A stretch of DNA of 64,000 nt, from contig NZ_AUDV01000005.1 of assembly GCF_000425645.1 (NCBI RefSeq), positions 310,001 through 374,000 of the forward strand, read 5' to 3'. Under the pieces are notes generated by a model. It was not told the origin of the DNA. It saw only the letters and a program-made list of their open reading frames with translations, and did not search any database. Position 1 is the first letter of the stretch; each line of letters opens with the position of its first letter. Origin of the DNA: Gaetbulibacter saemankumensis DSM 17032 (GTDB lineage: Bacteria > Bacteroidota > Bacteroidia > Flavobacteriales > Flavobacteriaceae). This document shows positions 35,556 to 64,000 of this stretch, piece by piece. Both the position numbers and the translations under genes were made by a program.

Positions 35556-35567
35556 ATGCTACTAAAA

Positions 35568-38462
35568 ATGAGAAAAATTACTACCATATTATTGATATTG
35601 TTTACATACTTGGGGTTTTCCCAAAAACAAGATATCAGTTATACGATAACACCGCTCCCCTTTAATGAAGACGACAATATTACCATAACATTTGAAGGAA
35701 ACACCATCAACGAATCTACATGGGGCGTTACAGATAATGCCCTATACCTATGGGCATGGTCTAAAGATTCGAACCTCGAGAATATACAAGATTGCCCTAC
35801 TAATGGGAGTTGGGATAATTCAAATGAAGCCAATCGTTTAACTTACAATTCCGTAAACGACACCTATGCAATCAGATTTGTTCCATCCGTATTTTATAGC
35901 CGAACCAACATAGGACAAATTGGATTTTTAGTGAAGGCTAAAGATGGTAGTAACTTAAAGCAATCTGAAGATTACCTTGAAGACGTTGGCCTCTTTCAAA
36001 TCACATTAACACAACCCACAAAAACGACATCAATAATTACAATGGGAAGCAATTTTAATGTAGCCGCCTCTAACACAGGAGGCACGGCCAATTATATCCT
36101 AAAAGCCAATGAAACTATTATTGACTCTCAATCTAACATTTCCAACTATAGCTTTACCGATACATCGGTATCTGAAAACAAAAACTACACTTTAGAAGTT
36201 ACAGTCTTAGGAGAAACTAAAACCAAAACATTTTCTGTACTTGTAGACCCCGAAACTTCATACGAAATAATGCCGCAAAGTTATTTGGATGGTATTAATT
36301 ATGATGACAACGACCCTACCAAAGCTACTTTGGTTTTATATGCTCCAGGAAAAGACTTTGTGTATGTAGCAGGAAGTTTTAACAACTGGCAACCTGATAC
36401 CAGTTATGCTATGAAACGTGACCCATCCAGAAACAACAAATTCTGGTTAACCTTAACAGGTTTAACTCCCGGACAGCTTGAGTCGTATCAATATTGGGTC
36501 ATCGACAAAACACCTATTACAAATTCACCCACTTTAGTAAAAGTAGCCGATCCCTATTCTAACTTGGTGTTATCGCCATTCGATGATCCCTATATACCTA
36601 ATACTACCTATCCAAATTTACCAGAATACCCATCGGGACAAGAACGTGAGGTTACGGTACTTCAAACCAATCAGCCCTCCTATAACTGGCAGGTTGAAAA
36701 CTTTGTAAAACCAAAAAAAGAAGATTTGATCATTTATGAATTATTGATTCGTGATTTTGATGCTGATAGAAATTTTCAAGATGTTATAGATAAAATAGAC
36801 TATTTAAAAAGTTTAAATATTAATGCTATTGAACTCATGCCTATTATGGAATTTGAAGGCAATGAAAGTTGGGGCTACAATACATCTTTTCACATGGCCT
36901 TGGATAAATTCTACGGTACAGAATCAAAATTTAAAGAGCTTATTGATACCTGTCATCAAAACGGCATTGCCGTAATTTTGGATTTAGCCATTAATCACGC
37001 CTTTGGAAGAAATCCGCTGGTGCGACTCTGGATGAACGATCCGGAAAATGATGGTTGGGGAGACCCTAGCTCTGAAAATCCTTATTTTAATCAATCACCA
37101 AAACATTCTTACAATGTAGGTTCAGACTTCGATCATTCAAATTCGTTTACTAAAGTTTATACCAAGCGCGTTGTAAAACACTGGATTGAAAACTTTAAAA
37201 TTGATGGTATACGATGGGATTTAACCAAAGGATTCACTCAAAACTGTGAAAATAATGAAGGTTGCACGAATGACTATAATGCCGATCGTGTTGCCGTACT
37301 TAAAGAATATGCCGATTACAGCTGGAGTCTAGACCCCGATCATTATATCATTTTTGAACATCTTGGAACAGCATGGGATGCGAACAACGATGGATTGACC
37401 TCTAGAGATGAAGAAACCGAATGGGCTAATTATAGAGTTGATGAAGGAAAAGGCATCATGCTGTGGGGCAATATAAACCACGAGTATAATGAGCTCACTA
37501 TGGGATACACCGGCAATATAACCGATATGGGACATAAGGCCAGAAGTTTCCAAAAACCACGACTTGTTGGCTATGCCGAAAGTCATGACGAAGAACGCCT
37601 CATGTACAAAAACCTGCAATTCGGTAATAGTAATGGCAGTTATGATGTAACTAATTTAGAAACCGCCTTGTCCAGAATGCCCGCTTTGGGAGCTGTAAGC
37701 TTAACCATCCCTGGACCTAAAATGATATGGCATTTTGGTGAATTAGGTATGAACAACTCCATTTTTACATGTAATAATGGGGCTGTTAATGATTTGAATG
37801 GCAATAACGGTGATTGTAAACTAGATACAAAGCCTCAACCCCAATGGAGCAATAACTGGACGGACGATAGCGCAAGAAATCAAATTTATGAGGCTTGGTC
37901 CCGAATTATTAATTTAAAAATTAACGAACCAGTATTTGAAGGCGATTATACAATTACCTCTAATAACCTCACCCCGAGAATAAGCATCTTTACTGGTGAT
38001 GAAAACAGCTCAGGAAGCTCCCTTAAAAATATTATAATCATAGCTAATTTTGGTGTGGTTTCACAAAACATTAATCCCAATTTCCCTTACACAGGCACTT
38101 GGTATGATTTAATGGATACTTCTGGAAACACTACAATTGATGGCAGTACAAGCAGTATTAATTTAGAGCCTGGCGGTTATAAAATTTATGGCAATACCAT
38201 GACTACCCTATCTTCACCAATATTTGAAGACCAATCCGACTTAAAAATGTTTCCAAATCCTGTTTCCGAAAAATTCACTCTAAACCAGTCCGTAACAAAA
38301 GTTAATATTTACGACATCACCGGGAAACATTTACAATCCCATCATGGATACTTTTCGAAAGGCCATGAATTTAATATTTCATCATTATCTCATGGTATAT
38401 ACATTGTTGAAATAATTAATAACCATAAACAATCCCAATCAAAAAAAATAATTAAACTATAA
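35568..38462 (+). CDS. T9SS-secreted GH13 alpha-amylase with E-set/CBM48-type module
   Basis: The ATG at 35568 gives the signal MRKITTILLILFTYLGFSQK; the in-frame ATG at 35556 sits in the terminator T run. The 964-residue protein has an N-terminal sandwich region (about 25-240), an E-set module like CBM48 (about 255-345, VYVAGSFNNWQP), a GH13 barrel with Asp555 (IDGIRWDLTKG), Glu601 (IIFEHLG) and Asp678 (GYAESHDEE), counted from 35556, and a T9SS C-terminal domain (about 885-968: FPNPVSEKFTL, VNIYDITGK, ISSLSHGIYIVEI, SKKIIKL). It is exported and attached or released at the surface to start alpha-glucan breakdown. Confidence 0.92.
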   Translation: MRKITTILLILFTYLGFSQKQDISYTITPLPFNEDDNITITFEGNTINESTWGVTDNALYLWAWSKDSNLENIQDCPTNGSWDNSNEANRLTYNSVNDTYAIRFVPSVFYSRTNIGQIGFLVKAKDGSNLKQSEDYLEDVGLFQITLTQPTKTTSIITMGSNFNVAASNTGGTANYILKANETIIDSQSNISNYSFTDTSVSENKNYTLEVTVLGETKTKTFSVLVDPETSYEIMPQSYLDGINYDDNDPTKATLVLYAPGKDFVYVAGSFNNWQPDTSYAMKRDPSRNNKFWLTLTGLTPGQLESYQYWVIDKTPITNSPTLVKVADPYSNLVLSPFDDPYIPNTTYPNLPEYPSGQEREVTVLQTNQPSYNWQVENFVKPKKEDLIIYELLIRDFDADRNFQDVIDKIDYLKSLNINAIELMPIMEFEGNESWGYNTSFHMALDKFYGTESKFKELIDTCHQNGIAVILDLAINHAFGRNPLVRLWMNDPENDGWGDPSSENPYFNQSPKHSYNVGSDFDHSNSFTKVYTKRVVKHWIENFKIDGIRWDLTKGFTQNCENNEGCTNDYNADRVAVLKEYADYSWSLDPDHYIIFEHLGTAWDANNDGLTSRDEETEWANYRVDEGKGIMLWGNINHEYNELTMGYTGNITDMGHKARSFQKPRLVGYAESHDEERLMYKNLQFGNSNGSYDVTNLETALSRMPALGAVSLTIPGPKMIWHFGELGMNNSIFTCNNGAVNDLNGNNGDCKLDTKPQPQWSNNWTDDSARNQIYEAWSRIINLKINEPVFEGDYTITSNNLTPRISIFTGDENSSGSSLKNIIIIANFGVVSQNINPNFPYTGTWYDLMDTSGNTTIDGSTSSINLEPGGYKIYGNTMTTLSSPIFEDQSDLKMFPNPVSEKFTLNQSVTKVNIYDITGKHLQSHHGYFSKGHEFNISSLSHGIYIVEIINNHKQSQSKKIIKL

Positions 38463-38468
38463 CTAAAT

Positions 38469-38507
38469 AAAAAAGGCTTAGTTCAACACTAAGCCTTTTT
38501 TTTTACT
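38469..38507 (+). terminator. Intrinsic terminator after the secreted amylase
   Basis: AAAAGGCTTAGT (38471-38482) pairs perfectly with ACTAAGCCTTTT (38488-38499) around TCAAC, followed by a T run. It ends the sus operon; the next gene is on the other strand and convergent. Confidence 0.9.
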
Positions 38508-38543
38508 GACTACTGCAACATGATTACATTAATAAATTTTCTG

Positions 38544-39824
38544 CTAATAATTAATTTGTATCTGCATACGTAATAAGTGTCCTGTCTGAAAGTTCGAAGT
38601 CTTTACACCATCTTCAAAGCGGCGTTCCGCATAGGTGTAATTTAAAGCAATTTCAAAAGGATAAAATGGACTCCACTCCGATCCGATTTCAAATTCTTTT
38701 ACATTATAGCTTCGAGCGTCCAATTCAAATTTCTTGCCGCCATCGTAATACTGAAAACGCATGAAAGGATAAAATTTATGCTTTCCAGCCTGAACATTAC
38801 CTATAATACTAAGGTAACCACCGTTTAAATTCTGCTGTTCTACCCAATTATTCATCGGAGAATACTCAGGTCCATTACCAATGTTATATTCCATTTGAAA
38901 ACCTATTGGCTGGGGATAATAAATAACGGAAGCTGCCACACGGTAATCGTCAAAAAAGGCGTCCTGCGCATTTAAAGGGTTGCCAAAATCGTCATATCGT
39001 CCTTTAGCAATTACCCCTTCGGTAGTTGACGTTAATTGATACTTCCCATAATATCCCTGTATAGAGGTTTCTAAATACTGTCCGTTAGCAAATTCGAAAG
39101 GATAGGTTAATCGCGTTGCTACATGAAAGGAACCATTATTGTCTGGAACTGTAGCATTAGCGGTTTGTCCATTAAATATCCCAATACCAAAAACACCATA
39201 ATCACCACTTCCTTTTAAACCTTTATCGATTAAAGTTTTAAATCGTTTTTGTACCGTAGGAGAAGCGTAATAAAAAGCGACCATCATATCCCGTTCGTTT
39301 TTAAAAGCACTATTTATAGGGTCTGATCGATCTAAAGGTATCCTATTTTGAGACGACTGTAAATTATCAAATCCATACATAATCTTACTTTGGCCAATCC
39401 TAAAACGGTACTTCTTTAACTTATCTAAATAAACATCAAAATAGCCATCGCGCAATTGCCCCAGATTTTTACCATCGGAAGCAAAATCGGGCTGGATATA
39501 AAAATAAATCTGCGGATGAATCCACCCTGAAAATTTAATTCTCAACCTTCGTAATGAAAACCCTTTTTCACCACCGTAAGTGGCATCACATTGTTCACAT
39601 TTCAAATCTGTATTCGATTTCGCATTACCACGAAATTGTAAGTAACCATCAATTTTAATTCTGTCTGTCCAGTTCTTAAAGCCGAAAGGATTCGAAACAG
39701 AGTCTTGTTTGAATGAGTCGTTATAAATACTTTGAAGAAATCCGGAATTATTAACACTACCGTCCTGTGCGACCAGTTTAAAAATTCCGAAAATAATAAT
39801 TAAAAGGAGTATTATTTTTTTCAT
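38544..39824 (-). CDS. OprO/OprP-type porin
   Basis: A 426-residue outer-membrane protein with signal peptide (ending LVAQ). The early strands (IKIDGYLQFRG, GFSLRRLRIKFSGWIHPQIYF, FYIQPDFASDG) and the regular alternation of aromatic beta strands up to a terminal LLRMQIQINY match the phosphate-selective porin O/P family. In Bacteroidota such porins can carry phosphate, polyphosphate or other anions; no phosphate-uptake genes adjoin. CDATYGG contains a Cys pair (CEQC) unusual for a porin loop. Specificity is not determined. Confidence 0.85.
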   Translation of the reverse strand: MKKIILLLIIIFGIFKLVAQDGSVNNSGFLQSIYNDSFKQDSVSNPFGFKNWTDRIKIDGYLQFRGNAKSNTDLKCEQCDATYGGEKGFSLRRLRIKFSGWIHPQIYFYIQPDFASDGKNLGQLRDGYFDVYLDKLKKYRFRIGQSKIMYGFDNLQSSQNRIPLDRSDPINSAFKNERDMMVAFYYASPTVQKRFKTLIDKGLKGSGDYGVFGIGIFNGQTANATVPDNNGSFHVATRLTYPFEFANGQYLETSIQGYYGKYQLTSTTEGVIAKGRYDDFGNPLNAQDAFFDDYRVAASVIYYPQPIGFQMEYNIGNGPEYSPMNNWVEQQNLNGGYLSIIGNVQAGKHKFYPFMRFQYYDGGKKFELDARSYNVKEFEIGSEWSPFYPFEIALNYTYAERRFEDGVKTSNFQTGHLLRMQIQINY

Positions 39825-39918
39825 ATAAAGTGTTATTTACTAACCCTCAACACCTTATAAATGTACTAAATTAAACGCATAAATTAATTGGCTTAACAAT
39901 AAAATAATACCAAAAAAG

Positions 39919-39947
39919 AAAAAGACTCAGATTTACTGAGCCTTTTT
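39919..39947 (-). terminator. Intrinsic terminator of the GH43 gene
   Basis: On the minus strand AAGGCTCAG-TAAAT-CTGAGTCTTTTTC forms a hairpin with a T-rich tail (plus positions about 39921-39945), 33 bp after the GH43 stop. Confidence 0.75.
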
Positions 39948-39979
39948 AATATGATATTGCATGGTTTTATTATTTCAGT

Positions 39980-41785
39980 TTAATCAACTTTAATAATTTC
40001 AGAAGCATCGGAAATTCCATTTTCACTGTAGGCTTCTATTCTAAAATAATAAGAGGTATCTCTGTCTAAACAACGCATATAATGTTCGTTATCACCATAA
40101 ACTTGCCACGACTGGTATAATTTATCAGGGGCTATTCCCCATTGGATATTATACCCTTGAGCGCCCTTAACCGGTTTCCAAGTCAGAGTTACATCTCTTC
40201 GATCGTCTTCACGCTTTACCGAGAAGTCTTTTACCTTTTGGGGTGCTTTACCAAAGCCTTTACCAAACACTCTTATTTCAGATAATGCCAGATTATTTCC
40301 AGGCACTTCTACATTACGGTAACGCACATATTTAGCAGATACTGGTGCATTAAGTACGATGTAAGCATTCGGACTATCTTTGTAACTATTACTTCTATCT
40401 ACTACAGTTTCCCAGTTTTTTCTATCGTTAGATATGTCGATGTAAAATCGATGACGCAAGCCTTCGGTACGCGTATAAATACCAGATTCATGATCGTGAT
40501 AATTTAACTGGAACGCATATATTTTTCCAGGATTTAACATGTCTATTTTCACCCATTGCTTATCATCGTTTGCATCGGCTACCCAGAAAGATTTCGGACT
40601 TTCATCCGTCAATACATTTGCGATTATTTCGCCTTCAGTATTTTTTTCCAATGGTATTTCTGTAATGTCATAATTATCATCGGTAGATGTGCTTTTAACA
40701 ATTTGCATTTGCGATGACGATACGGTGGTTTTTCCCTTGTAGGATAATAACATCCAACCATTATGTTGTCCGGCTTTTGTAGGGTGATTAGGAGCATAAC
40801 GCGGATAATCACCATAATTTGTATTTGATGACATTAATCCTTCATCATCGAAATTTACAGGAAACATACACAGGCGTCTTTCCCAATGGGAGTTAGAAGC
40901 CAAGGCCATAGTTGAAAAATGCCAGTACTGATCGTTAGTCTGTTTTACCGTAATACCATGTCCGGCACCGTTAGTAAACCCTCCTGGTTTGAAAGACATT
41001 GGATTACTCTTCATATATTCGAAAGGACCTAATGGTGTTTCTCCAATATATACACCATCGGCATATACATTAAACTGTGTACCCGGGGCTGCGTATTGCA
41101 GATAGTATTTACCATTATATTTGGTCATGGAAGCACCTTCCATATAACCTTCCTTGATTGTTGGATGAAAGTTATTTTCACCAAAACGCTCCCAACCGTG
41201 TTCTTCTTCAACAAGATTGATTAAATCCTTCTTCACTCCGGTTTCCAGCATACGATCGTCTTTATTTAATTCTTTAACACGAATAGGATGCACGTTTGAG
41301 GATCCCCAATACAAATACGTTTTCCCATCATCGTCGATAAATAATTCTGAATCCTGAATATTATTGGTGATAGAAGCTGTTGGTGTCCATTTACCATTCT
41401 TTGGATCGTCGGTATAAAGAATACTTCCGTAGCCTGCAGGATCTCCGGCTAAATATATTTTTTCGTCTTTAAAATTAAATGCTGTTGGAGCATTACACCC
41501 CTCAAAAAACCACTGATCAGGTTTAATAAATGTCCAGTTTACCAGATCTGTAGAGTGCCAATACCCAAACGAACGGGTTACAAACATATAATATTCACCA
41601 CGGAATTCTACCACGGCAGGATCGGCGCCAGATCGATACGATATGTTCCGGCTCGAATTATATACCATATAGGTATAATCGATATCGATTGGGTTACAAT
41701 ATGTCTGAGGAACTATTTCCTGTGCCTGTAAAGCCACACTTAAAAATAAAGCTAGCCCTGCAAACAAATGCCTTAAAAATGTCAT
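39980..41785 (-). CDS. GH43-family glycosidase with discoidin and FN3 modules
   Basis: A 601-residue secreted enzyme with signal peptide (ending VALQAQ). The five-bladed GH43-type propeller (about 28-370) has Asp55 in YRSGADPAVVEF, Asp146 in NIQDSELFIDDDG and Glu216 in YMEGASMTKYNGKYYL, matching the three acidic catalytic positions. An F5/8-type discoidin domain (about 385-510, GKIYAFQLNYHDHESGIY, VSAKYVRYRNVEVPG) and a fibronectin III domain (about 515-601) follow. GH43 enzymes act on arabinan, xylan or galactan side chains; the subfamily cannot be set by eye. It is unlinked to a SusCD pair here and not clearly part of the starch locus. Confidence 0.85.
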   Translation of the reverse strand: MTFLRHLFAGLALFLSVALQAQEIVPQTYCNPIDIDYTYMVYNSSRNISYRSGADPAVVEFRGEYYMFVTRSFGYWHSTDLVNWTFIKPDQWFFEGCNAPTAFNFKDEKIYLAGDPAGYGSILYTDDPKNGKWTPTASITNNIQDSELFIDDDGKTYLYWGSSNVHPIRVKELNKDDRMLETGVKKDLINLVEEEHGWERFGENNFHPTIKEGYMEGASMTKYNGKYYLQYAAPGTQFNVYADGVYIGETPLGPFEYMKSNPMSFKPGGFTNGAGHGITVKQTNDQYWHFSTMALASNSHWERRLCMFPVNFDDEGLMSSNTNYGDYPRYAPNHPTKAGQHNGWMLLSYKGKTTVSSSQMQIVKSTSTDDNYDITEIPLEKNTEGEIIANVLTDESPKSFWVADANDDKQWVKIDMLNPGKIYAFQLNYHDHESGIYTRTEGLRHRFYIDISNDRKNWETVVDRSNSYKDSPNAYIVLNAPVSAKYVRYRNVEVPGNNLALSEIRVFGKGFGKAPQKVKDFSVKREDDRRDVTLTWKPVKGAQGYNIQWGIAPDKLYQSWQVYGDNEHYMRCLDRDTSYYFRIEAYSENGISDASEIIKVD

Positions 41786-52434: not shown

Positions 52435-55400
52435 TTACTCCTTTATTAATTTAATAGTACTTCTTCCTTGATTTGTACGTATTTGAGCAAAGTATATACC
52501 TGATCTTAATTGAGAAACCTCTATGGAAGTTGCTTTTGAATTTGGATTTAAGCTTACTACTTTACTGCCTAAAATATCATACACATCAATTGAAAGCAAG
52601 ACCTCATTTCCACTTTTAATATTCCAGTAATTTGAAGATGGATTCGGAAAAACTTTAATATCAATTAATGTTCGATTTTCATTTGATAATGAGGCTACCT
52701 GAGAAACGTCATCAAAGTAAAAAGTTGAAGTAGCAGAACCATTACCTATATTTCCTATATCAAAAAGAAAAACAATTCTATCAAACACTGTATTTCCGTA
52801 GGTCGAAAAATCGTAAGTTAATGTATGCCAAGAACCACTTTCATTGGTATAATTTTTTAACTCTACGTTATTTCCTTGATTCGCTTGCTCTTCTAACTTT
52901 ATGCTTATTGGCGTTCCAACAGGAGCTTCTGTCCACACCTTTAATGTAATGTACTTTTTGGTGAGAAAATTTAAAGAAGCATCTAAATTCAAATAAGAGC
53001 CTGCCCAAACCTGACCGCCATTTCTTATCAATTTAGCCATTTTATTACTTTCATTCCCCTGACTAAGCGATCCTGTAACCACTTCTACATAAGTACTTCC
53101 TCCATCAAAATCTACAAAATCTGAAGCTATAGGCGTCGTTTCAAAATCAAATGGCAACCCTGTTGTTCCTTCTGGATTACATTCAGAACAAGGTCCTCCA
53201 CAATCTACTCCTGTTTCTCCTTGATTTTGAATACCATCAAAACACGTTGGTCCTGAATCAGTACAATTTGATCCCACGACGTAATCAACATATTCGGTTA
53301 CTGCCAACCCTCCTGTAAATTCAAACTTACAAGCATAACTAATGGTTTCTCCATGGGCTAATCCTGTTAATGTTTTAGTAAATTTATTAACCGCTAAATT
53401 GGTCATTCCACTTTCAGAAAATGGTGATTCCTGCCACAAATAGGCATTCCATGAAGATTTATCGGTATCTAGTAATTCAAAAGTGACAATAACATTTGAG
53501 CCAATAGTTTCGAACGTACTTTTGTACCCTAATGAGAAATTACCCTGAATAGCATTACTTCCCGTTTGAGTACAACTCCTCACTTCATCAACAGAAATAT
53601 TAACAACTTGAGACGTTCCAATGCTTCCTTTATCGTCCGTTGCTTTAACAGTCAGTTCGTGACTGCCAACACCAGCATTACTCCAATTAAAACTGTATGG
53701 TTCTGCCGCATCTTCACCAAGTTTAATAGCTCCATCATAAAATTCAACTTTTGTTATGACACCATCAATATCGCTGGCCATAGCAGATATTAAAATATCG
53801 TTACCTTCTTTAAAAGTTTCATTATTTTTCGGAGTGCTAATGGTTGTTGTTGGTGCCACATTACCATTTTGAGTAACAATTATCAATACCGTATCTGATG
53901 AAGTATATTCACCATCATCCACTGTTAATTTAATCTTATAAATTCCTTCCTCCAAATTAGAAACACTAGGTGTTTCAGAATTGTTATTTGAAAAACTAAT
54001 AATAGAAGGCCCATAAATCTGTTCCCAAGTATAATTTAATATTGTAGTATCTGTATCGGTACTTAAAGAAGCATCTAAAACTGCACTAGTATCGGGTAAA
54101 ATTACAGAAATGTTACCACCTGCATTAGCAACTGGTGGATTATAAGCAAGGGAACTACTGTATGAAAAAGTTAATTTCCCTAAATTAAATTCACCATTAT
54201 CAAATGCTATTTTCAAAGTTTGTATCCCTTCGTTTAATTCAATACCATTTACTGTATGTGTAGACCATGTGGACCAATCTGAATTACTGGTTGCTGACAA
54301 GTAAATATCACTACTTATCACTTTATCATCTATTTCAAGATGAAACGGACCTCCTCCTGCAACATTTCCTGAGGAATACCTAAAAGATAAATCGTAAACT
54401 CCAGCTGTTTGAACATCGATGGTATACTCCAACCACTCGCCAGATGCGATCCAACCGACAAATGCGCCTTCATTTGTATCCATAGAAGTATCAACATATT
54501 CATCGGTTCTAAACCCCCCTTCATTATTCAAAGACAAATCCAAATATGCAATATCCTGTGCAATACCGCCCTCAAATTTATCATAATGACCGGCTTCAAT
54601 TGTACCTGGTATTTCAATTGCTGTTCCAGAATACGGCACTTGCTCTCCAACCTGCACCTTTACAATGTTAGTAACATTAAACTTCGTGTCTTTATAGACC
54701 TTGGCATAAAAACCGTGCATTCCTAATGTAAGATTTTCCACTTTTAGCGTGTAAGGAGCAGTTAACACTTCGTCTAACAATTTGGAACCATCATAAAATG
54801 CCACTTTTGTAACCCCTGATCCCGTAATTTCAACATTTAAGTTCACACTACCACCCGGAAATGCTTGAGTGAAATCTGAATAAATAATACCAGCAACATC
54901 AGTATCCTTACTTGTTACCATTTGATGCGCCGGAACGAACAAAGTATAGCCATCGGAAAAAGTTACTGTTATATCTGAATCGTAATAATTATGAGCGACA
55001 TAAGTCTTATCTCCATTATTATCAAAAACAGCAGCTATAGGATAATCGGCATAAATATCTGATTCTAAAGTGCCCATCGCATTCATGGCATGTAACCAAT
55101 GGTAAGTTTGCGCATCAGATACACCAAACTTCATTATTCGATCTGGATAGCTATCGTACAAATCAACAGCTAACTGTGGATCTAAAAAAGATAGATACTT
55201 CCATATTGTATCGTGCCACAAGTTTGGATTAGTGCTTGTAGTACTCAGTATTTCGGTATATAACTTTAACTCATCCCATATTTTTTGTACATAATTTTTA
55301 TTGTGCCCTAAATAAAGAGATCCGCCATGCATTGGATAAAGCTCAATTCCATAAGATGCAGTTATATCAGCCGTCCAAAAGGTACCGTTATCATAAGAAT

Positions 55401-57147
55401 TCCCCCAAACACGAGACACTAAGCCATATTGCTGAGAAGGTTGAAAATTACGCTCGTACATATCGAACCAATATTCTTCTATCGCTGTTTGTTCGGTAGT
55501 ATATAAATAAATTCCTAAATCTCTTATGGCATCATTATTCGTAATAGTTCCCCAATGAATTAATGAAGAATTAAACTGCATACTCTCTGAGGTAGATTCT
55601 TGATCATTTCCTTGCGGAAAGGTAGCAAAACCATTAGCCCAACAATGACCAGCATATGGACTAAAATTTCTTAAGAATGGAAATTGTGAATCGTTTCTAT
55701 CTTCTGAAGCGGCATCTCTGATTAATAGATTTACCATATCACCCCAGTCATTTGCCCAGCCAGGCTCAAATTGTTCTAAAAATGCGGCTGCATGTATAAA
55801 GTAGCCCCAATGAAAATGATGATCATTTATATTAGAGTCCTGACCATGTCCCGCCGGATAACCCAATAATGCCGACCAATCATTATTATAATAAAAAAGA
55901 AAAGCCTTTTCCCCTGCCTCATAAGTTAACCAGTCTTCCAATCTTTCTTTTATGGTTGAAACCATTTTATCTCTTGCCTCGATATTACCCGTTTGATCGG
56001 CAATTCTAGCCGTTTGAATTAAACGATTCAATACCTGACCTTCATTATAGGAATCTGTCCAGGTAGCTAAACCATCATTCTGAATTTGAGATATCTTATC
56101 ATTTAACAATGCGGGATCAAAACCATCGCTATAATTAGATAAGTAAGGCATGGTTGGTAAAATTCCTTTAAAGCTATTTTCAACAATAAACCCATTGCCT
56201 TCAAGTGTTTTTATTTCTCCTCTAACGCCATCATAACTATATCCTGTAGGCATCGCCGATATGGACGATAAATTTGCCCATTGATGCGGCAAAAGCCCCA
56301 ATAATATATTCGTTTCACTGCCCTCTTTTGTTTCAGTAACAACTGTAAAATCTGTTATCACCTTACTTGTACTTTCACTATACGACCAATTTGTAGTTGT
56401 ATTAACGGGAAACACATAGGCGTATTTTTTATATTCCTGAGCTATCGAATTTACATTTACATTATTTTGAGGCAACATGGCCATAGAACAATACTTTTTA
56501 CCATTTAACATGGAGGTATATGTATTTCCTGAATGAACCCAGGTACTACCCGATGGCGCATAAAACACAAAATCGGCGCCATTACTTGCATTTTCTATAA
56601 TTAACAACTCGGCTGAAATAGTCACGTTACCACTATTGACTTTTACCTGAAAAACGTCATCTAATTCTTTTTCAAAATATAAAAATGGCATGCCGATTCC
56701 AGATGTTGCTTTTAAATCATGATTACCATCATTCCAATGCATCGTAACAGTCCAATCTGAATAATCAGATACCGAAACCTTTGAACTATTTAGCCCATTT
56801 ACACCAACTTCAATAGGTGAAGAATCACCAATGACACCAAACGGAATATAAGTAACAATTAAGCCGTTATTAGTCGTTTTCATAGTCATGGGATAATTAA
56901 ACAGATTATCGGCATGATTTTCTTTTACCAGCTTGGACCACCAATCGTTAGTAGGCACTGGTTTCCCTTGTACAACACCAGACAACTGTGGTGTACCAGA
57001 CGGATACCCATTTCTTCCTGCCGAATCTGCACCAGGATATACATTAGTATAACTTCCATTTCCAACCGATATCTGTGAAAAAACGAGGCACGTATTTACA
57101 TAGAATAAGATTACAAGTAACTTTTGAATTGAATTTTTTAATAACAT
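52435..57147 (-). CDS. Multimodular GH81 endo-beta-1,3-glucanase with T9SS tail
   Basis: A 1570-residue laminarinase that cuts internal beta-1,3-glucan bonds, inverting. Signal peptide (ends VFSQ). The GH81 domain (about 30-745) has the acid Asp442 in NDHHFHWGYF and the base Glu517 in GNDQESTSES. Then come an Ig-like domain (about 755-835), a CBM6-type module (about 840-998), a PKD domain (about 1004-1095), a second Ig-like domain (about 1097-1186), a beta-sandwich (about 1190-1300, also seen beside other laminarinases), a Cys-rich linker DGIQNQGETGVDCGGPC, a second sandwich (about 1335-1490) and a T9SS type A sorting domain (about 1495-1570, FPNPSSNYWNI ... TIKLIKE). It acts outside the cell, probably on the surface. 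It is the farthest gene of the beta-glucan locus, 96 bp after the binding protein with a terminator between. Confidence 0.93.
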   Translation of the reverse strand: MLLKNSIQKLLVILFYVNTCLVFSQISVGNGSYTNVYPGADSAGRNGYPSGTPQLSGVVQGKPVPTNDWWSKLVKENHADNLFNYPMTMKTTNNGLIVTYIPFGVIGDSSPIEVGVNGLNSSKVSVSDYSDWTVTMHWNDGNHDLKATSGIGMPFLYFEKELDDVFQVKVNSGNVTISAELLIIENASNGADFVFYAPSGSTWVHSGNTYTSMLNGKKYCSMAMLPQNNVNVNSIAQEYKKYAYVFPVNTTTNWSYSESTSKVITDFTVVTETKEGSETNILLGLLPHQWANLSSISAMPTGYSYDGVRGEIKTLEGNGFIVENSFKGILPTMPYLSNYSDGFDPALLNDKISQIQNDGLATWTDSYNEGQVLNRLIQTARIADQTGNIEARDKMVSTIKERLEDWLTYEAGEKAFLFYYNNDWSALLGYPAGHGQDSNINDHHFHWGYFIHAAAFLEQFEPGWANDWGDMVNLLIRDAASEDRNDSQFPFLRNFSPYAGHCWANGFATFPQGNDQESTSESMQFNSSLIHWGTITNNDAIRDLGIYLYTTEQTAIEEYWFDMYERNFQPSQQYGLVSRVWGNSYDNGTFWTADITASYGIELYPMHGGSLYLGHNKNYVQKIWDELKLYTEILSTTSTNPNLWHDTIWKYLSFLDPQLAVDLYDSYPDRIMKFGVSDAQTYHWLHAMNAMGTLESDIYADYPIAAVFDNNGDKTYVAHNYYDSDITVTFSDGYTLFVPAHQMVTSKDTDVAGIIYSDFTQAFPGGSVNLNVEITGSGVTKVAFYDGSKLLDEVLTAPYTLKVENLTLGMHGFYAKVYKDTKFNVTNIVKVQVGEQVPYSGTAIEIPGTIEAGHYDKFEGGIAQDIAYLDLSLNNEGGFRTDEYVDTSMDTNEGAFVGWIASGEWLEYTIDVQTAGVYDLSFRYSSGNVAGGGPFHLEIDDKVISSDIYLSATSNSDWSTWSTHTVNGIELNEGIQTLKIAFDNGEFNLGKLTFSYSSSLAYNPPVANAGGNISVILPDTSAVLDASLSTDTDTTILNYTWEQIYGPSIISFSNNNSETPSVSNLEEGIYKIKLTVDDGEYTSSDTVLIIVTQNGNVAPTTTISTPKNNETFKEGNDILISAMASDIDGVITKVEFYDGAIKLGEDAAEPYSFNWSNAGVGSHELTVKATDDKGSIGTSQVVNISVDEVRSCTQTGSNAIQGNFSLGYKSTFETIGSNVIVTFELLDTDKSSWNAYLWQESPFSESGMTNLAVNKFTKTLTGLAHGETISYACKFEFTGGLAVTEYVDYVVGSNCTDSGPTCFDGIQNQGETGVDCGGPCSECNPEGTTGLPFDFETTPIASDFVDFDGGSTYVEVVTGSLSQGNESNKMAKLIRNGGQVWAGSYLNLDASLNFLTKKYITLKVWTEAPVGTPISIKLEEQANQGNNVELKNYTNESGSWHTLTYDFSTYGNTVFDRIVFLFDIGNIGNGSATSTFYFDDVSQVASLSNENRTLIDIKVFPNPSSNYWNIKSGNEVLLSIDVYDILGSKVVSLNPNSKATSIEVSQLRSGIYFAQIRTNQGRSTIKLIKE

Positions 57148-57242: not shown

Positions 57243-58640
57243 CTAGTTTTTGATGAGTTTTAAACTACTTGTGCCTCGTTCTGTTTGAACTTGCGCAAAA
57301 TACAGTCCTGATTTTAAGGAAGAACCATCAACCTGAACTTCTAAAGTATTTGGCGTTAACGACAGTACCATTTTACCTAATACATCAAATACTTTTACAG
57401 ATGAGATAGGATTATCTACATTTTGAATGGTCCAGCTTCCTTCGGTTGGATTAGGGTAAGTTCTAAATGAAGCTCTATGTGCATCTTTAGTGCTTAAAGG
57501 AGTACCTTTATATAAGTAAACATTATCATAATAAACCGTACCTAAATCAGAAGTAATTACAAATTGTACCACATCATTAATTTTCGCATTAGTTATAGGG
57601 GTCCAACTACTCAAGTCGATATCGAAAGAATACCAAGTTCCAGGATTCGGATTAGTCAAAAAGTTACCATTAGTGATGGAGAACTCTATGGCGTTTGCTT
57701 CTCCGGCACCATTATCCCAGTTAGAGAATTTAATATTAAAACTTTTATCTAAAGTAGGGGTATTCGTATACATATCCATATGAAACTTAGTAAAGCCGGT
57801 AGCATCAAATCTACCTGAGATGAATTCTACTCCTTCACAGCCTAAACCTGTAATTTTTTTAGTGGGGTTACCATCAATCATTACTTCTGTGGTTGTACCT
57901 GGACACCAAGAGGTATCAAAAGTATCAACAGAAATATCAGTATAAGCATCGCTGAAAATCGAAATAACATCGTCTGCATTTCTTGCCGGTGGTGTTGGAG
58001 CTGCAGTGGCTGGTGGAATGTCACACACATTTGGACATGAACCTCCACAATCTACCCCTGTTTCATCTCCATCTTGGATTCCATTTGAACATGTATCAAC
58101 ATTACCAGAAATATTATCTACATAAAACGTCCTAGAATCGGTTGTTACACCACCAAAAGTAGTTTCTCCAGCCTTCCAATAGGCATGAATTACAAAAGTA
58201 GCATAGATTCCATCTGCTTCTGCCGCTTTTCCATCAAGCGAAGTATTAAATGTAAAAGAAAGCGTCTGCCAAGTATCATCTCCATTGTGCGTAACTTCAG
58301 CAGCTGCCTCTGGGGCACCAGAAAGTCCTCCATTCACCTTAACTAAAAAAGTTATTGGGGTCGCCGACTTAACATCAATCGACATAGTTTTTGAACTTCT
58401 TAAATCAACATTCTTAGTAAGGTTTAAATTTACTCCTTGCCATACCGCACCTCCGGGGTTACCGATAATTTCGAGTACTTCACTTGTATTACTTCCTGTT
58501 CCTGTAACAACAGACGGCGCTGCCATACTTCCAAATTCGGCACCAACAGCACCACTTGTCTCAAAGCTCTGAAGAACTTCTTGAGAATAACCCATAGAAG
58601 CTATCAGAAAAACAAATAAAATTGTAATTTTTTTCATCAT
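57243..58640 (-). CDS. T9SS-secreted glycan-binding-type protein of the laminarin locus, no catalytic domain
   Basis: A 465-residue protein with signal peptide (ends GYSQ). Two beta-sandwich modules (about 20-180 and 222-380) flank a Cys-rich linker, DGDETGVDCGGSCPNVC, which is close to the linker in GH81. It ends in a T9SS sorting domain (about 390-465, YPNPTEGSWTI, VFDVLGKMV, SLKLIKN). The first module resembles the penultimate module of GH81 in strand order and motifs (AVWQGVNLNL versus QVWAGSYLNL; FYVDNIS versus FYFDDVS). No glycosidase motifs are seen, so surface glycan binding is inferred. Three 11-bp tandem repeats lie 220 bp upstream. It could instead be a truncated GH16-type protein. 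Confidence 0.75.
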   Translation of the reverse strand: MMKKITILFVFLIASMGYSQEVLQSFETSGAVGAEFGSMAAPSVVTGTGSNTSEVLEIIGNPGGAVWQGVNLNLTKNVDLRSSKTMSIDVKSATPITFLVKVNGGLSGAPEAAAEVTHNGDDTWQTLSFTFNTSLDGKAAEADGIYATFVIHAYWKAGETTFGGVTTDSRTFYVDNISGNVDTCSNGIQDGDETGVDCGGSCPNVCDIPPATAAPTPPARNADDVISIFSDAYTDISVDTFDTSWCPGTTTEVMIDGNPTKKITGLGCEGVEFISGRFDATGFTKFHMDMYTNTPTLDKSFNIKFSNWDNGAGEANAIEFSITNGNFLTNPNPGTWYSFDIDLSSWTPITNAKINDVVQFVITSDLGTVYYDNVYLYKGTPLSTKDAHRASFRTYPNPTEGSWTIQNVDNPISSVKVFDVLGKMVLSLTPNTLEVQVDGSSLKSGLYFAQVQTERGTSSLKLIKN

Positions 58641-58859
58641 TAATTTTGTTTTAGTTAATTATTAAATAATCCAGTTTTCGGTATTATAAAAGTACTCACG
58701 CCAATTACCAATACCATAAAATATACCCCTACAAAAAACATACATCGCAAAATATTCCTACTTATACTGTCTATATATCAACAAACCGTCTAATTTTATT
58801 GACTTTAGAGTTGTTAAAATGTATTCACGTATACTCTTTAAATCCCTAAAATATTTACA

Positions 58860-58892
58860 ATGTTGTGGTAATGTTGTGGTGGTGTTGAGGTA
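58860..58892 (-). promoter_or_regulatory. Three tandem 11-bp units, candidate activator binding array
   Basis: ATGTTGTGGTA, ATGTTGTGGTG and GTGTTGAGGTA lie head to tail without gaps, one helical turn apart, in the 674-bp gene-less region 58641-59314 upstream of the binding-protein gene. Same-face spacing fits a multimeric DNA-binding regulator. The rest of this gap holds AT-rich DNA and the terminator of the symporter gene. Confidence 0.6.
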
Positions 58893-59180
58893 AATTTCAT
58901 CAATTGAACAGCTCCTTTTCATAATATGGTTCATATGAGAAAAAAATAATGCACAAAACCTAAAACAAACTAAGCTTACTAAACGCTGTTGCCATTAAAT
59001 AGTAAGTAAAAGGAGTTTAAATAAGTATTAGAAAACAAAACATACCCAATTTTAATTCTACTCGAAATTATTGAACAGAATATTGTTGTACTCTTCATTT
59101 AGCTAAAACAACGTTTAAGTGCTTAAGGAGACACCTCGTAAAACTTTAATTAAGGGGTATGATTTAACTAATTGGGTCCT

Positions 59181-59236
59181 TATAAAAAGAAACAGGCGAA
59201 TTAAACTTGAGAAGTTATACCCGCCTGTTTATAAAA
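59181..59236 (-). terminator. Terminator of the phosphorylase-symporter operon
   Basis: AAACAGGCG (59190-59198) pairs with CGCCTGTTT (59222-59230), with an inner AACTT-GAG-AAGTT hairpin in the loop. On the minus strand a T-rich tract follows at 59181-59189. It sits about 85 bp after the symporter stop codon. Confidence 0.7.
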
Positions 59237-59314: not shown

Positions 59315-60739
59315 CTATAATTTAACCATCGGTTTTCTACGATTATCCAGCTCAACCCGAACTTGGTTTGCCCGTTCCTCAGTAACATTATAATTTCTCA
59401 TGACATACATAGCTATCAAGGTTCCTAATATTGGAATTCCTGAATAGAAAAATCTTAATCCGGTTATCGCTTCCGGTGTTTGCTCTGCAGCTCCCGGATC
59501 GAAACCTACAAGACTCAAAATGGCCCCACTTAGTAAACCTGCAATAGCAAAACCAAATTTAACCATCCACCAGTAAATAGCCCCAAAGATACCTTCTCTT
59601 CGCTTGCCTGTATTAAGTTCATCTAAATCAATCACATCAGCTGTCATAGACATCATGAGTGTAAACAAACTACCAATACCAAATGAGAAAAACGGAAGCG
59701 CATAAATAAACATATATGGCTTTCCTGGAATAAATAAAAACCACAATAAAATATACCCAATTATTGAAATCCCTTGTGAATAAATAAATGCCATTTTTTT
59801 TCCTAATAATTTTGACATTTTTGCTACTGTAGGGATCACCAAAAATGTAGTAACAAGTGAGGCTAAACTACCAAACAAAGTAGGCCATAAGCCAGCTGCT
59901 CCAGCGTCTCCATTAAAAAGATGATAAACTATTATGAAAAATGAAAATGCGGCAATAGTGTTAAAAGCATTAAAAATAAAGAATGTTGCTATACATAATT
60001 TTCTGAAAGGTACCGATTGAAAAGATTCTTTAAATCCTTTTACAATCTCTTTAAAACTGCTTCCAATGGTTTTAAAATTTAATGGCAAATAGTCCTTATT
60101 GACTGTTGATTCACTTTTTATAAATATAGCAGGAATCATAGCAAATATCATACAGCCAATACCTACCCAAACGGCTAAAGTTCTCGTGGCAATGTCTGCC
60201 GTTTCAAACCAGCCTTTATCGTACATAATAACCCAAAACCAAGGAGCAATCACCCAAGCCCATTGTCCTATCCATTGAGCTACTGCCATGATATTGGTTC
60301 GCTCATGAAAATCATCACTCATCTCATAACCCATAGCCACATAAGGCACACTAAAAATGGTTAATCCCAAATAAAATACGAAAGACCATATTAAAAAATA
60401 TGCGAAATTATAATTAATACCATTTTCTCGGTAAAGCTGCCACATTATTATGAAGGCTATCCCCATAATTATGGCGCCCACAAATACATATTGTCGGCGT
60501 CTCCCCCATTTCGACTTTGTATTATCTGAAATAAACCCCATTATAGGATCTGTTAAAGAGTCGAATACCCGCGGAAGAAAAAAGAGGATACCCCACATCC
60601 AACCTGGAAATCCCAAATCCTGGACCAAAACAACCATAAATATTCCTAAGGCTGCCGGAAACATTTGATTAGCGAGCATTCCGATTCCAAAAGCTATTTT
60701 TTGACCATATGGCACTTTTCTGGAGGTATTATTAGACAT
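59315..60739 (-). CDS. GPH-family glycoside:cation symporter
   Basis: A 474-residue, twelve-helix transporter of the glycoside-pentoside-hexuronide family. The typical loop LPRVFDSLTDPIMGFISDNT followed by KSKWGRRRQYV and the motif VPYVAMGYEMSDDFHERTNI are present. It imports short saccharides with Na+ or H+. The phosphorylase gene is 32 bp upstream in the same operon, so laminari-oligosaccharides are the likely cargo; this is inferred from context. Confidence 0.9.
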   Translation of the reverse strand: MSNNTSRKVPYGQKIAFGIGMLANQMFPAALGIFMVVLVQDLGFPGWMWGILFFLPRVFDSLTDPIMGFISDNTKSKWGRRRQYVFVGAIIMGIAFIIMWQLYRENGINYNFAYFLIWSFVFYLGLTIFSVPYVAMGYEMSDDFHERTNIMAVAQWIGQWAWVIAPWFWVIMYDKGWFETADIATRTLAVWVGIGCMIFAMIPAIFIKSESTVNKDYLPLNFKTIGSSFKEIVKGFKESFQSVPFRKLCIATFFIFNAFNTIAAFSFFIIVYHLFNGDAGAAGLWPTLFGSLASLVTTFLVIPTVAKMSKLLGKKMAFIYSQGISIIGYILLWFLFIPGKPYMFIYALPFFSFGIGSLFTLMMSMTADVIDLDELNTGKRREGIFGAIYWWMVKFGFAIAGLLSGAILSLVGFDPGAAEQTPEAITGLRFFYSGIPILGTLIAMYVMRNYNVTEERANQVRVELDNRRKPMVKL

Positions 60740-60771: not shown

Positions 60772-63700
60772 TTATTTTTTAATGGAGACTTCAACAATAG
60801 TTATTTCTCCTCTTCGTTCAAATATAGATTTAGATATTTCTAAGCTTAAAGTCCATGCATTAAAATGAACGCTCTTACCATTTTTGTAATGCACTTTAAT
60901 TTCATCTTGCTCAGATAAATTGTAAACGACAGGCACTTGACAACATGTAAAACATACTGTATTTGATGCTACTGAGAGTTGTTGTTCTTCTTGAAACACA
61001 TCAACATAATTAAATACCGATGATTTATCCAGAAATTCATTCATCCTTAATAAGCGTGGATTAAATGATATTTTACCGTTATTTACAATGACACCTAACT
61101 CACCAAATCGACTCAGAACATCTTCCTTAACTTGTCCTGTCATCCCTGGCTGCTGGGCTCCTTTTGTTGCTGGTGTATGCGAATAAGGGTCTATAGGAAA
61201 CGCGCCGTATAATTTTGGCGATTTATGTACCCCAATGCCCGCATTGATCTCATAGTAATGATCTAAAAGTTTTCCTAGATCAGCTTCACTATTTTGTTGA
61301 TTTATTTCTAACCAACAGTTTTCCTGAACGGCTAGCAGCAGTTTTGAAACCATATGCCAATAGATTGAACCTAATCCTTCGTATCCAAAAAATGTTCCTG
61401 AACGCCCCGTGAAAGATTTATGATTAAAAACCTCTTCAAAAGTTTGCAGCAGGTACTTTTTTTCTTCTTTAACAAGATTATCGTATTTACTATCAAGACC
61501 TTCTAATGCCTTTTCTAAACTTTTAGCGTTATGGAAATTTTTATTAAAATGACAATCCCCAATAATATCCTGATCAATGATTTGTTTATTTCCATCTGCA
61601 ATTAACTGCTTCATTAATTGAGATTGTTCCACATTCTTTTTGGGAATATTGTTCTTTTTATCAAAACGAGGTAATTCCTTGTTAGGATACAAAATATAAC
61701 TATATTGATCTTCCCTGAACAGATCACTCTGTTTCAATCCATTCAGCAATTTTAAAGCCTCTGATGGAGATAAATAGCCGGCACTTAAAACAGCGACTTG
61801 TCCTTCAAGCATAACGGACAAATGAGAAACGGAAACTTCTTTCTCGTTTTCAATAGTCATTAAATTATAAGCGTGAAACATATTATCTTCACGTCTATTA
61901 GCCTCTATACTGTGAGCTAAATGTAACTTGGTAATGTTTATAAAACTTTGAAGTGTTTCAAAACTTATTGAAACTTTCGCATTCGAAAATCCATTTTCAT
62001 AAATAGTCTCACGGTATGTACTCCCCGCATTTCCTAAGGCATCTAAAATAGATCTTCTGTCCGCATCCGAAATTTTATCAGACAAAACAGCTTTATTACT
62101 AACAAACACGTCATGAATGTCATCAAAGAACTCTTTAAGTTCTATGGAAATTTCAATATCGGTTGATTTGGCATTTCCAATAACACCTTCAAGGAAAGTC
62201 ATAAAACGATATAAGTAATACAAGGTTACCATAGAGGTACCATTACCCACTAAAGCATTATTTGCATCATTCCATTCCGGCCTTTGAGTATTTAACCAAA
62301 TCCCAGCTTCCGGAATAAAATTTGACAGTTTAGCTAAAGTAGTTGCAAGTAACTTTTCGATAAGATTTACGTGAATAATTCCACCACTTTTATCTGCTAA
62401 TAAAGCACCATCTGCACCTAATTCATTTCGTTTTTTTGCGATATTTCGATCCAATTCAGAATCAAAAGATATGGTGTCCTTTGGATTTTTTAGAATATCC
62501 TCATATGTTTTAATCTTATAAGGAACATTCGCGTAGACAAAAATTTCTTTACTTAAACTATCTACCAATTTACCAGGATAGTATGCCTCAATAAATTCTA
62601 AAAATTTTAATAAGTATATTATTTGATGATCTCCCCAATACCCGATATAAGACCATGGATCATGTTCTTCAACAACTTCCCAGTCGAATCCATCTTTAGT
62701 CACTCGATATGGATTATATCCATCAAAAGTTGAGGCGTTTAAAAATTTATGGATCATTCCTTCTATAAATTCCGGATAAGAATGCGCTAGCGCTTCCCAA
62801 TTCTGAAATATATCTCGCCAATTCCCTTCATAATCAAGAATTTTAGATCCATCTATTTCACTTCGGGTATTAATAGAGAACTTATTCCATGGCCTACTAG
62901 GATCGCCATGTCTTCGGCTAAATTTTAAGGGTAAATATTCAGTACATAAACGTTTAAAATCACTACTCGAATTATCAGCTATGAGTTTTTGCAGGTATTT
63001 TAAATTGAAACTTTCTGGTAAATTTTCTAAAACCTGTTCTTGTTCATAAAAAACAAGCTTATTGGCTTTGTTTACATACTTTTTAAAATCGCTCTTCTCA
63101 ATAGTATAACCATTATCAAATATACCTCCTCTCATAATATTAAACATGGTATTTGAAAAATGTCTAATATTAATTAATGAATCTGAAGATAATTGCAATC
63201 CATCTGCAGCAGCCGTTAATTTGATGAGATTTTTTGTCCCCAAATCGATATCTTCTGCAATTAAAGTTTCAATATTTTGAGTGTTTTTGATAAGCTCTTT
63301 TAGAGCGACAATATCTGATATTGATTGATCGACATTTGCTACTAACGACCAGTGTTTTTCTTGATTAGCCTCTAATAAAATATCTGTTGAAATAAAATAA
63401 GCACCTTTTTCGGCCTTTACATCAATTTCCTGATCGACATTGCCCTTTTTTCTAAATTTATCTAGCTGTAAGGAAGATAATAGATAGCTTGGGTGATTAA
63501 CCCCATAAGACCAAACCATGTTCGCTTTTAAAGCCTCACTAGGCTCCGCCTTATCAACAATAACAGCACTTAAGGCATAAACACCCAAACCTGTTGCTTC
63601 ATCTAATTCACTTTTCTTATAGGCATCAACTAAATTACTGCTACCATTTTGTAAATCTGAAGACACATTGCTAGGCAAAATATTTTGAATACCATCTAAG

Positions 63701-64000
63701 ACTTTTACCTCCTTAGGGTGTTCAGAAATATTTAATAAGGTCGATTTTTTCACAAAACCAAACTGATTGCTAGAACTCCATTGGTATCTAAAAACTAAAC
63801 CTAAATCATAATTTATTTCTTCAAAAACAATCTTATTTCCATAAATGCTCTTGTATAAATTATTTTGAGTTCGATAAATACCGAATTGTCGTATAGAAAA
63901 TGGCTCCCATATTCTACAGTCTCCGTTGACATAAACCTGAAAGATAGACTTGCTTCCCGTAGTCTCTGCCATTTCAGTAATCTTATCATCGGAATAATAA
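60772..64000 (-). CDS. GH149-like beta-1,3-glucan phosphorylase (partial, runs off the right edge)
   Basis: At least 1,075 residues are open to the window end: upstream of Met at 63972 the frame continues YYSDDKITE with no stop, so the true start lies beyond 64000. The fold is a GH94-clan phosphorylase: N-terminal sandwich, RRHGDPSRPWNKFSI (about 353), YEGNWRDIFQNWEAL (about 381) and NTQRPEWNDANNALVGNG (about 561, residues counted from 63972) with the Asp of EWND as likely acid. Size and these motifs fit the beta-1,3-glucan phosphorylase families GH149 or GH161 better than the smaller cellobiose phosphorylases; GH149 is my preference. It would split laminari-oligosaccharides with phosphate in the cytoplasm, giving alpha-glucose-1-phosphate. 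It begins the operon with the symporter. Confidence 0.8.
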   Translation of the reverse strand, partial: YYSDDKITEMAETTGSKSIFQVYVNGDCRIWEPFSIRQFGIYRTQNNLYKSIYGNKIVFEEINYDLGLVFRYQWSSSNQFGFVKKSTLLNISEHPKEVKVLDGIQNILPSNVSSDLQNGSSNLVDAYKKSELDEATGLGVYALSAVIVDKAEPSEALKANMVWSYGVNHPSYLLSSLQLDKFRKKGNVDQEIDVKAEKGAYFISTDILLEANQEKHWSLVANVDQSISDIVALKELIKNTQNIETLIAEDIDLGTKNLIKLTAAADGLQLSSDSLINIRHFSNTMFNIMRGGIFDNGYTIEKSDFKKYVNKANKLVFYEQEQVLENLPESFNLKYLQKLIADNSSSDFKRLCTEYLPLKFSRRHGDPSRPWNKFSINTRSEIDGSKILDYEGNWRDIFQNWEALAHSYPEFIEGMIHKFLNASTFDGYNPYRVTKDGFDWEVVEEHDPWSYIGYWGDHQIIYLLKFLEFIEAYYPGKLVDSLSKEIFVYANVPYKIKTYEDILKNPKDTISFDSELDRNIAKKRNELGADGALLADKSGGIIHVNLIEKLLATTLAKLSNFIPEAGIWLNTQRPEWNDANNALVGNGTSMVTLYYLYRFMTFLEGVIGNAKSTDIEISIELKEFFDDIHDVFVSNKAVLSDKISDADRRSILDALGNAGSTYRETIYENGFSNAKVSISFETLQSFINITKLHLAHSIEANRREDNMFHAYNLMTIENEKEVSVSHLSVMLEGQVAVLSAGYLSPSEALKLLNGLKQSDLFREDQYSYILYPNKELPRFDKKNNIPKKNVEQSQLMKQLIADGNKQIIDQDIIGDCHFNKNFHNAKSLEKALEGLDSKYDNLVKEEKKYLLQTFEEVFNHKSFTGRSGTFFGYEGLGSIYWHMVSKLLLAVQENCWLEINQQNSEADLGKLLDHYYEINAGIGVHKSPKLYGAFPIDPYSHTPATKGAQQPGMTGQVKEDVLSRFGELGVIVNNGKISFNPRLLRMNEFLDKSSVFNYVDVFQEEQQLSVASNTVCFTCCQVPVVYNLSEQDEIKVHYKNGKSVHFNAWTLSLEISKSIFERRGEITIVEVSIKK

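Follow-up and report, generated by a model that had tools for sequence, protein, structure and literature searches.

What is the function of a short tandem repeat that stands in front of a laminarin-type operon of Gaetbulibacter saemankumensis DSM 17032? Laminarin is a major storage sugar of algae and is eaten by marine flavobacteria. In the 64,000 nucleotides that we analysed (the window; contig NZ_AUDV01000005.1, positions 310,001 to 374,000), an initial annotation had described three RTGTTGWGGTR units exactly 11 bp apart, two of them differing at a single position, 220 bp before the gene 57243-58640. The sequence bears this out: the units ATGTTGTGGTA, ATGTTGTGGTG and GTGTTGAGGTA occupy 58860-58870, 58871-58881 and 58882-58892, units 1 and 2 differ at one position, and 220 bp separate the start of the array from the ATG of the minus-strand gene, to which the array (unit TGTTGWGGT; hereafter A) is antisense. 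Judged from its sequence and conservation, A is probably a regulatory site, the distal half of a conserved two-part operator (Table 1). In laminarin-eating flavobacteria, a single membrane sensor probably acts through this two-part site to turn on dispersed genes of laminarin digestion.

Table 1 Operators, promoter element and genes at the array and at the second laminarin-type operon (window positions unless prefixed)
Feature	Position	Strand	Basis
Distal operator A (predicted)	58860-58892	+	Three 11-bp units, exact sequence; TRF; conservation in relatives
Promoter-proximal operator B (predicted), TGTATGTTTTTTGTAGGGGT	58744-58725	-	De novo EM; genome B scan
Predicted -7 element TACTTTTA, TAnnTTT type	58694-58687	-	Starts 50 bp after B start
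Target gene, 465-aa secreted protein with T9SS C-terminal sorting domain	57243-58640	-	Pfam; relatives follow the array elsewhere
GH81 (laminarinase family) with CBM6, PKD and T9SS tail	52435-57147	-	Downstream of target gene
MFS sugar transporter, last gene of second laminarin-type operon	59315-60739	-	
GH149 beta-1,3-glucan phosphorylase, second operon, cut by window edge	60772-63999	-	
A and B of the second operon (beyond the window)	C2:379903-379923 and 379777-379796		

Tandem arrays in front of laminarin-type operons

TRF reports the repeat in the window at 58859-58893 (period 11, 3.2 copies, score 49). The 33-bp triple occurs once in the window at up to 3 mismatches and in none of 100 dinucleotide shuffles; single units (up to 1 mismatch) occur 15 times, three of them in the array, against 6.7 expected, and none of 100 shuffles reached 15. 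A search of the complete genome (3.09 Mb) for the tandem pair, at up to 2 mismatches, gives three matches, two of which are A itself, and the reversed control has none. The third match, C2:379902, lies 11 kb off, antisense to a gene that it precedes by about 209 bp, in front of another laminarin-type operon. This second operon encodes, in order, a 1043-aa protein, a possible surface glycan-binding protein, GH16, GH149 and the MFS transporter. The 1043-aa protein has no Pfam match and is a predicted outer-membrane protein, which would place it at that membrane. The GH149 profile match scores 1778 bits (cut-off 1150), and the full gene (L004:2772-6224) encodes 1150 aa, so the start of the 1066-aa ORF in the window is not the real start.

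Because the second array heads a laminarin-type operon and A precedes 57243-58640 and the GH81 gene, both arrays lie at laminarin-type operons. In the product of 57243-58640, labelled ‘binding protein’ at the outset, Pfam recognizes only the T9SS tail; the product is possibly a glucan-binding protein. The GH81 gene has no B box (described below) of its own at up to 2 mismatches in the genome scan, and is presumably cotranscribed with 57243-58640.

Within the intergenic region, a sigma-70-type scan gave 3 sites (shuffle mean, 4.2), and a terminator scan found no terminator-like site. An inverted repeat, AAACAGGCG ... CGCCTGTTT (59190-59230), lies between the stop of the MFS gene and the array; its loop is too long for the terminator scan, and it is possibly the end signal of the upstream operon. 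An AraC-type regulator with an ExsA_N domain (L004:12238-13110) is divergent from the second laminarin-type operon. The window also holds a separate starch-type PUL (28051-41785) with a LacI regulator (28051-29127), SusE/F-like and alpha-amylase-family proteins at 34135-38462, behind two further genes, and a GH43 protein alongside at 39980-41785; the tandem pair search found nothing there.

At up to 1 mismatch, the 21-bp tandem core occurs in 29 of 199 genomes of the family, sampled at one per genus (33 match rows), and its reversed control in 2. Thirty of the match rows were viewed as loci and the other three within 20-kb regions. In three of the 33 the surroundings are not of laminarin type: L024 lies inside a coding gene, L033 is next to a glycosyltransferase, and the match listed second for G188 (L047) falls in a region resembling glycan biosynthesis. 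L024 and L033 were left out of anatomy counts and kept in presence counts. At 27 of the 29 loci L006-L034 the core runs antisense to a gene whose start is 190-335 bp off and which encodes SusC, a relative of the 57243-58640 product, a relative of the 1043-aa protein or (L028) the candidate regulator described below. Often, the array lies about 25 bp behind the regulator gene and 200 bp before susC. Among fourteen regions of up to 20 kb, it stands between regulator and susC in five (L036-L039, L045), before 57243-like genes in five (L040, L042-L044, L049), between the regulator and a 1043-aa relative in L041, in front of the regulator in L046, and before a 1043-aa relative in L045 (a second array) and L048. 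Proteins of about 1100 aa adjoin GH17 in laminarin clusters of relatives (L042:4880-8170, L043:10238-13528 and L049), and that of L042:4880-8170 carries FG-GAP and UnbV/ASPIC domains.

The exact core has 56 matches in 84,980 named genomes, 54 of them beside susC or laminarin-locus-type genes; the motif is thus not equally common in unrelated DNA, the outcome that had been named as speaking against a regulatory role. The nearest target-side gene is susC in 27, a 57243-like gene in 9 (in one of these, L171, the array lies within an over-long predicted ORF), a GH16-type gene in 8, and an SGBP-like, a GH81 and a 1043-aa-like gene in one each. It is unlabelled or cut off in 7, each of which has the regulator, GH17 or another laminarin-locus gene on the opposite side. 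Gene labels at the 56 loci come from BLAST to 15 reference proteins of G. saemankumensis and three relatives; six of the susC matches have 29-35% identity and may represent susCs that serve other glycans. The regulator ends within 60 bp of the core in 28 of the 56 cases. Two exact matches outside Bacteroidota (L168, L196) appear to be chance; they do not enter the anatomy counts but stay in the presence counts. An order-level exact search gave 5 of 296 genomes, from a sample in which many other families are represented and one genus is heavily sampled. The exact core also precedes susC-like genes in L165 (Marinifilum), L167 (Portibacter) and L176 (Phaeodactylibacter), genera that we take to lie outside Flavobacteriaceae; in L165 the regulator (31% identical) is divergent, not in line.

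The 117 unique sites (27 + 54 + 48 + 1 minus duplicates) carry a unit at offset 0 in 113 cases and at 11 in 106, both favoured by selection, and a third unit at +32 in 35, which is independent of selection and compares with a background of 0.2%. The gap-free 0/11/22 layout is rare, with two clean cases, A and Lacinutrix jangbogonensis (L152), and one imperfect case. We therefore dropped the gap-free triple as the defining feature, the third unit at +32 being commoner. A unit signal at +63 (13 of 117 sites), probably the C-terminal coding end of the regulator, was left unused.

A second box at a set distance from the -7 element

The flank between array and gene, initially described as otherwise featureless, contains both a second box and a -7 box (Table 1). 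De novo EM on array-to-gene stretches yielded this box, B (TGTATRTTTTTTGTWGNGGT on the gene strand), for which the window promoter scores highest. Its two units, TGTATRTTT and TGTWGNGGT, are spaced by 11 bp and have the opposite orientation to those of the array. At up to 3 mismatches, B occurs in 99 of the 117 array-bearing promoters and in none of 117 reversed sequences; the other 18 have no recognizable B. The housekeeping -7 consensus of Bacteroidota is TAnnTTTG. TAnnTT[TG] starts 50 bp after the start of B in 78 of the 99 promoters, 51 bp after it in 10 and 49 bp in 3, against a mean of 0.46 at other offsets. In the window, TACTTTTA fits the consensus except at its last base, and the presumed start site would give 57243-58640 a leader of about 40 nt.

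As the B consensus was derived from promoters in which it was then scored, only scans of the own genome and of the 199 genomes test it outside that set. In the own genome, B (up to 1 mismatch) occurs three times, at exactly the three laminarin-type promoters, each with A upstream; nine other matches all have 3 mismatches (reversed control, 12). In the family, B (up to 1 mismatch) is found in 76 of 199 genomes, 70 of which hold an orthologue of the candidate regulator (P = 2e-16; reversed control, 8 of 199). Exact B occurs in 46 of the 199, all with the orthologue.

A and B start 113-176 bp apart, inverted to each other, at distances that cluster near 114, 126, 137 and 148 bp. With one site per genus (51 sites), a choice that reduces and does not remove shared ancestry, the best period within 10-12.5 bp is 11.9 bp (R = 0.67; with local jitter as the null, P = 2e-4, the lowest value that 5000 draws allow). 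The best-fit period of about 11.6-12.0 bp exceeds the 10.5 bp of relaxed B-DNA, at which R is only 0.45 (all 99 promoters). Periods of about 11 bp are known from lac looping in vivo.

A SusR-like candidate regulator and its paralogues

The initial annotation had suggested that the array may recruit a dimeric or cooperative activator and may serve a sensor outside the window. Both suggestions fit a putative SusR-like, LuxR-type regulator encoded on contig C1 of the same genome (L055:10169-12982). All 29 core-positive genomes hold its orthologue, which occurs in 114 of the 199 (P = 1.7e-8; orthologues score at least 599 bits and the next match 507, a cut chosen after the gap was seen). The other 85 orthologue-bearing genomes have no strict core, and the core is degenerate in many (second unit TGTATAGGT). 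We also took the stretch after the regulator gene blind to the motif, in alternate rows among the first 120 of the 127 that list orthologues. The antisense core appears at up to 4 mismatches in 48 of these 60 regions, as against 0.33% of 1200 shuffles, and exceeds 4 mismatches in 12; it was found at this threshold in 0 of 20 corresponding paralogue regions.

A Y_Y_Y scan of the genome found five proteins, four of them HTCS-sized (1328-1393 aa) and one of 939 aa on C1; the C1 regulator has 937 aa from the start used. It matches Reg_prop (22.4 bits; cut-off 20.4) and Y_Y_Y (34.8 bits; cut-off 26.6), and this propeller/Y_Y_Y sensor would be periplasmic. Its C terminus is GerE-like, at 22.7 bits (cut-off 23.5) or 27.2 bits in the genome scan, and the scores of four regulator proteins straddle the cut-off (21.8-24.2 versus 23.5 bits). 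Pfam gives it no HisKA, HATPase, Response_reg or AraC domain. The gene for susC starts 227 bp past its last base, followed by susD and a PKD protein, and the gap before susC holds a weaker array, TGTTGTGGTG, TGTATAGGTA and AGTTGTGCTA at offsets 0/11/32. The looser A pattern that finds this array has one further genome match, C1:5167 (reversed control, 4). In the features tested, namely sensor domains, an HTH without kinase or receiver and susC/susD neighbours, the protein appears SusR-like.

We modelled the last 215 residues of the Maribacter stanieri orthologue (27 sequences; mean pLDDT 82, pTM 0.39). The model has a long helix, which may be transmembrane helix and coiled coil together, followed by four short C-terminal helices. 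The 50 PDB matches listed, of 206, are, from their titles and families, proteins that we take to have LuxR/NarL-type domains (VraR, LiaR, DosR, NarL); TM scores normalized to the isolated domains are 0.70-0.78, and no E-value among the matches listed is below 0.001. In the model, the C terminus of this orthologue thus resembles a LuxR/NarL-type HTH preceded by a long helix.

Paralogous regulators (30-35% identical, with a second G. saemankumensis copy on C5 among them; 20 of 23 lower-scoring matches among the matches listed, with one incomplete and two others left out) have other letters in their flanks. ACGTCA occurs twice, 11 bp apart (complement of the array strand), in 14 of the 20 paralogue regions; a further direct copy lies 55 bp after another in 14 of 20, mostly 66 bp after the first. 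A sense TGRCGTA unit is present in 17 of 20, each time with TAnnTT at +49 or +50. The recognition helix of the paralogues reads [IVTP]-R-G-[LVI]-E-T-[HNQ]-R-Y-R (14 sequences; HTH from 14 of 16 stretches) and the laminarin group has x-R-S-V-E-[VI]-K-R-Y-R, in which S and K never vary among 39 sequences (of 41 matches, 2 were excluded on length, and one of the 39 carries I in place of V). The same geometry with different letters is expected if the SusR-like family reads these boxes. We give even odds to the wider reading that flavobacterial SusR-family regulators share one promoter architecture, an inverted, enhancer-like distal array of tandem 11-bp units that is helically phased to a box set 50 bp from the -7 element, the two being bridged by a DNA loop that a membrane-anchored LuxR-type activator holds, and in which the recognition helix sets the unit, x-R-S-V-E-V/I-K reading TGTTGTGGT and x-R-G-L/V-E-T-H reading TGACGTA.

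An HTCS protein could instead be the binder: in the 0/11/32 layout, the 21-bp step from unit 2 to unit 3 would match the half-site distance of HTCS operators, which in Bacteroides were predicted as direct repeats about 21 bp apart (PMC3878776, in excerpt). In Bacteroides uniformis, a PUL for beta-1,3-glucan includes an HTCS regulator (PMC7157763, in excerpt), and the genome here has its four HTCS-sized Y_Y_Y proteins (1328-1393 aa) as well as HisKA, HATPase_c and Response_reg domains at L050. We regard this binder as quite improbable, because the motif-adjacent gene in relatives is often the LuxR-type SusR-like regulator and not an HTCS, the presence of A and of B tracks that regulator, the site sequence shifts with its recognition helix, and the units of A lie at 0/11/22 with no third unit at +32. 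The AraC-type regulator L004:12238-13110 is divergent to the operon and about 315 bp from the second array, yet none was recognized at the same-operon loci L041, L045, L046 and L048 (judged from the sequence ends given in the ORF listings) or beside the other two A and B promoters of the genome; it makes a very doubtful cognate factor.

A could also belong to a different protein, as a repressor or auxiliary site, leaving only B to the SusR-like activator. The two sites differ in detail (B1 is TGTATRTTT), A is distant from the promoter, and 18 of 117 array promoters have no clear B. However, A and the B2 unit share the core TGTWRWGGT, both sites track one regulator, A is phased to B, and in the paralogues they change together to TGACGT, so we think such a division unlikely. 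A chance tandem, or a selfish or simple repeat without function, would account for the few matches elsewhere that look random (L024, L033, L168, L196), but not for the 0 of 100 shuffles or for a position, orientation and neighbourhood that recur across genera; this conservation rules it out as far as computation reaches, and we give it next to no credence.

A proposed laminarin regulon and its relation to known systems

We consider it likely, from the sequence comparisons above, that A serves as distal operator for a one-component membrane activator of SusR-like type, which binds B as well, in a laminarin regulon of three promoters. The support computed for this reading comprises the sites, their conservation, co-occurrence with the regulator, the spacing from B to the -7 element, phasing and recognition-helix covariation; topology, binding, ligand, induction, activation rather than repression, and looping are what we infer. 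The activator, encoded on C1 beside a laminarin-type susC/susD operon, would consist of a periplasmic propeller/Y_Y_Y sensor, one transmembrane helix, a coiled coil and a LuxR/NarL-type HTH, with each HTH reading one 11-bp unit TGTWRWGGT. When beta-1,3-glucan oligosaccharides fill the sensor, ligand-bound, membrane-anchored dimers would occupy B, 50 bp upstream of the -7 element, and A further upstream, and transcription would be switched on. A may raise local occupancy, probably by looping. Regulators of the CadC/ToxR type likewise combine a periplasmic sensor, one TM helix and a cytoplasmic HTH in one protein and use more than one operator. The likeness lies in this one-protein membrane activator build with several operators; their winged-helix domains, however, are unrelated to the LuxR/NarL type seen here. 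The argument for looping comes from inversion and phasing alone, and that for activation, by analogy, from SusR (PMC3878776) and from the induction of three Formosa PULs by laminarin (PMC6246565), both seen in excerpt.

As A, B and the -7 element together mark three promoters, we propose that the dispersed laminarin genes form one regulon. Laminarin genes can be dispersed in a Maribacter genome (PMC11345257), and separate Formosa laminarin PULs can be co-induced (PMC6246565), according to the accessible parts of these articles. If true, the joint induction of dispersed laminarin genes would be accounted for by a common operator for which a candidate regulator can be named, and laminarin regulons, dispersed parts included, would become readable from genomes and metagenomes. 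SusR-type regulators would gain a concrete, testable promoter layout and, if the recognition helix sets the unit, one could deduce from the sequences of other SusR-like proteins which operators and regulons they have.

In its content of susC/D, GH16, GH17 and GH149, the system resembles flavobacterial laminarin PULs (Muricauda, PMC13188888; Formosa, PMC6246565; both in excerpt). A LuxR-annotated first gene heads many of the laminarin clusters of Muricauda and relatives in PMC13188888, which agrees with our reading of the regulator as LuxR-type. The words promoter and SusR are absent from its main text, and the excerpts of neither paper give an operator or promoter motif. The array motif was likewise not found in the excerpts covered from openly accessible papers on SusR motifs and on flavobacterial laminarin regulators and operators. 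With HTCS operators (PMC3878776, in excerpt) the arrays share direct repeats and, in the 0/11/32 layout, the 21-bp step between units 2 and 3. The linked regulator, in contrast, is LuxR-type and has no kinase, receiver or AraC Pfam match.

SusR-family sites in Bacteroides (SusR BT3705 and SusR2-4) were predicted by Ravcheev et al. as direct repeats with 67 or 77 bp between centres, and such sites were called uncharacterized before these 2013 predictions (PMC3878776; this and the following comparisons refer to its accessible part). Shared with them are a SusR-like membrane regulator, often by susC/susD, far-apart repeated sites, a helical-phase argument and a motif likeness that follows regulator likeness (PMC3878776). 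The differences are a distal 11-bp tandem with an inverted proximal box, steps of about 11.8 bp and the 50 bp to the -7 element. A and B, inverted and 113-176 bp apart, do not form two direct repeats at 67 or 77 bp, which sets this operator apart from published SusR sites, whereas the protein has the SusR-like features tested. The paralogue ACGTCA copies, at 55 and 66 bp, come closer to the published Bacteroides layout (PMC3878776). A second SusR-like regulator of G. saemankumensis, on C5 (L198:4350-7154, L141; about 935 aa, 30% identical), precedes a susC, and the gap between the two genes holds TACGTCA copies at an 11-bp spacing, together with a sense TGACGTA unit that precedes a -7 box by 50 bp.
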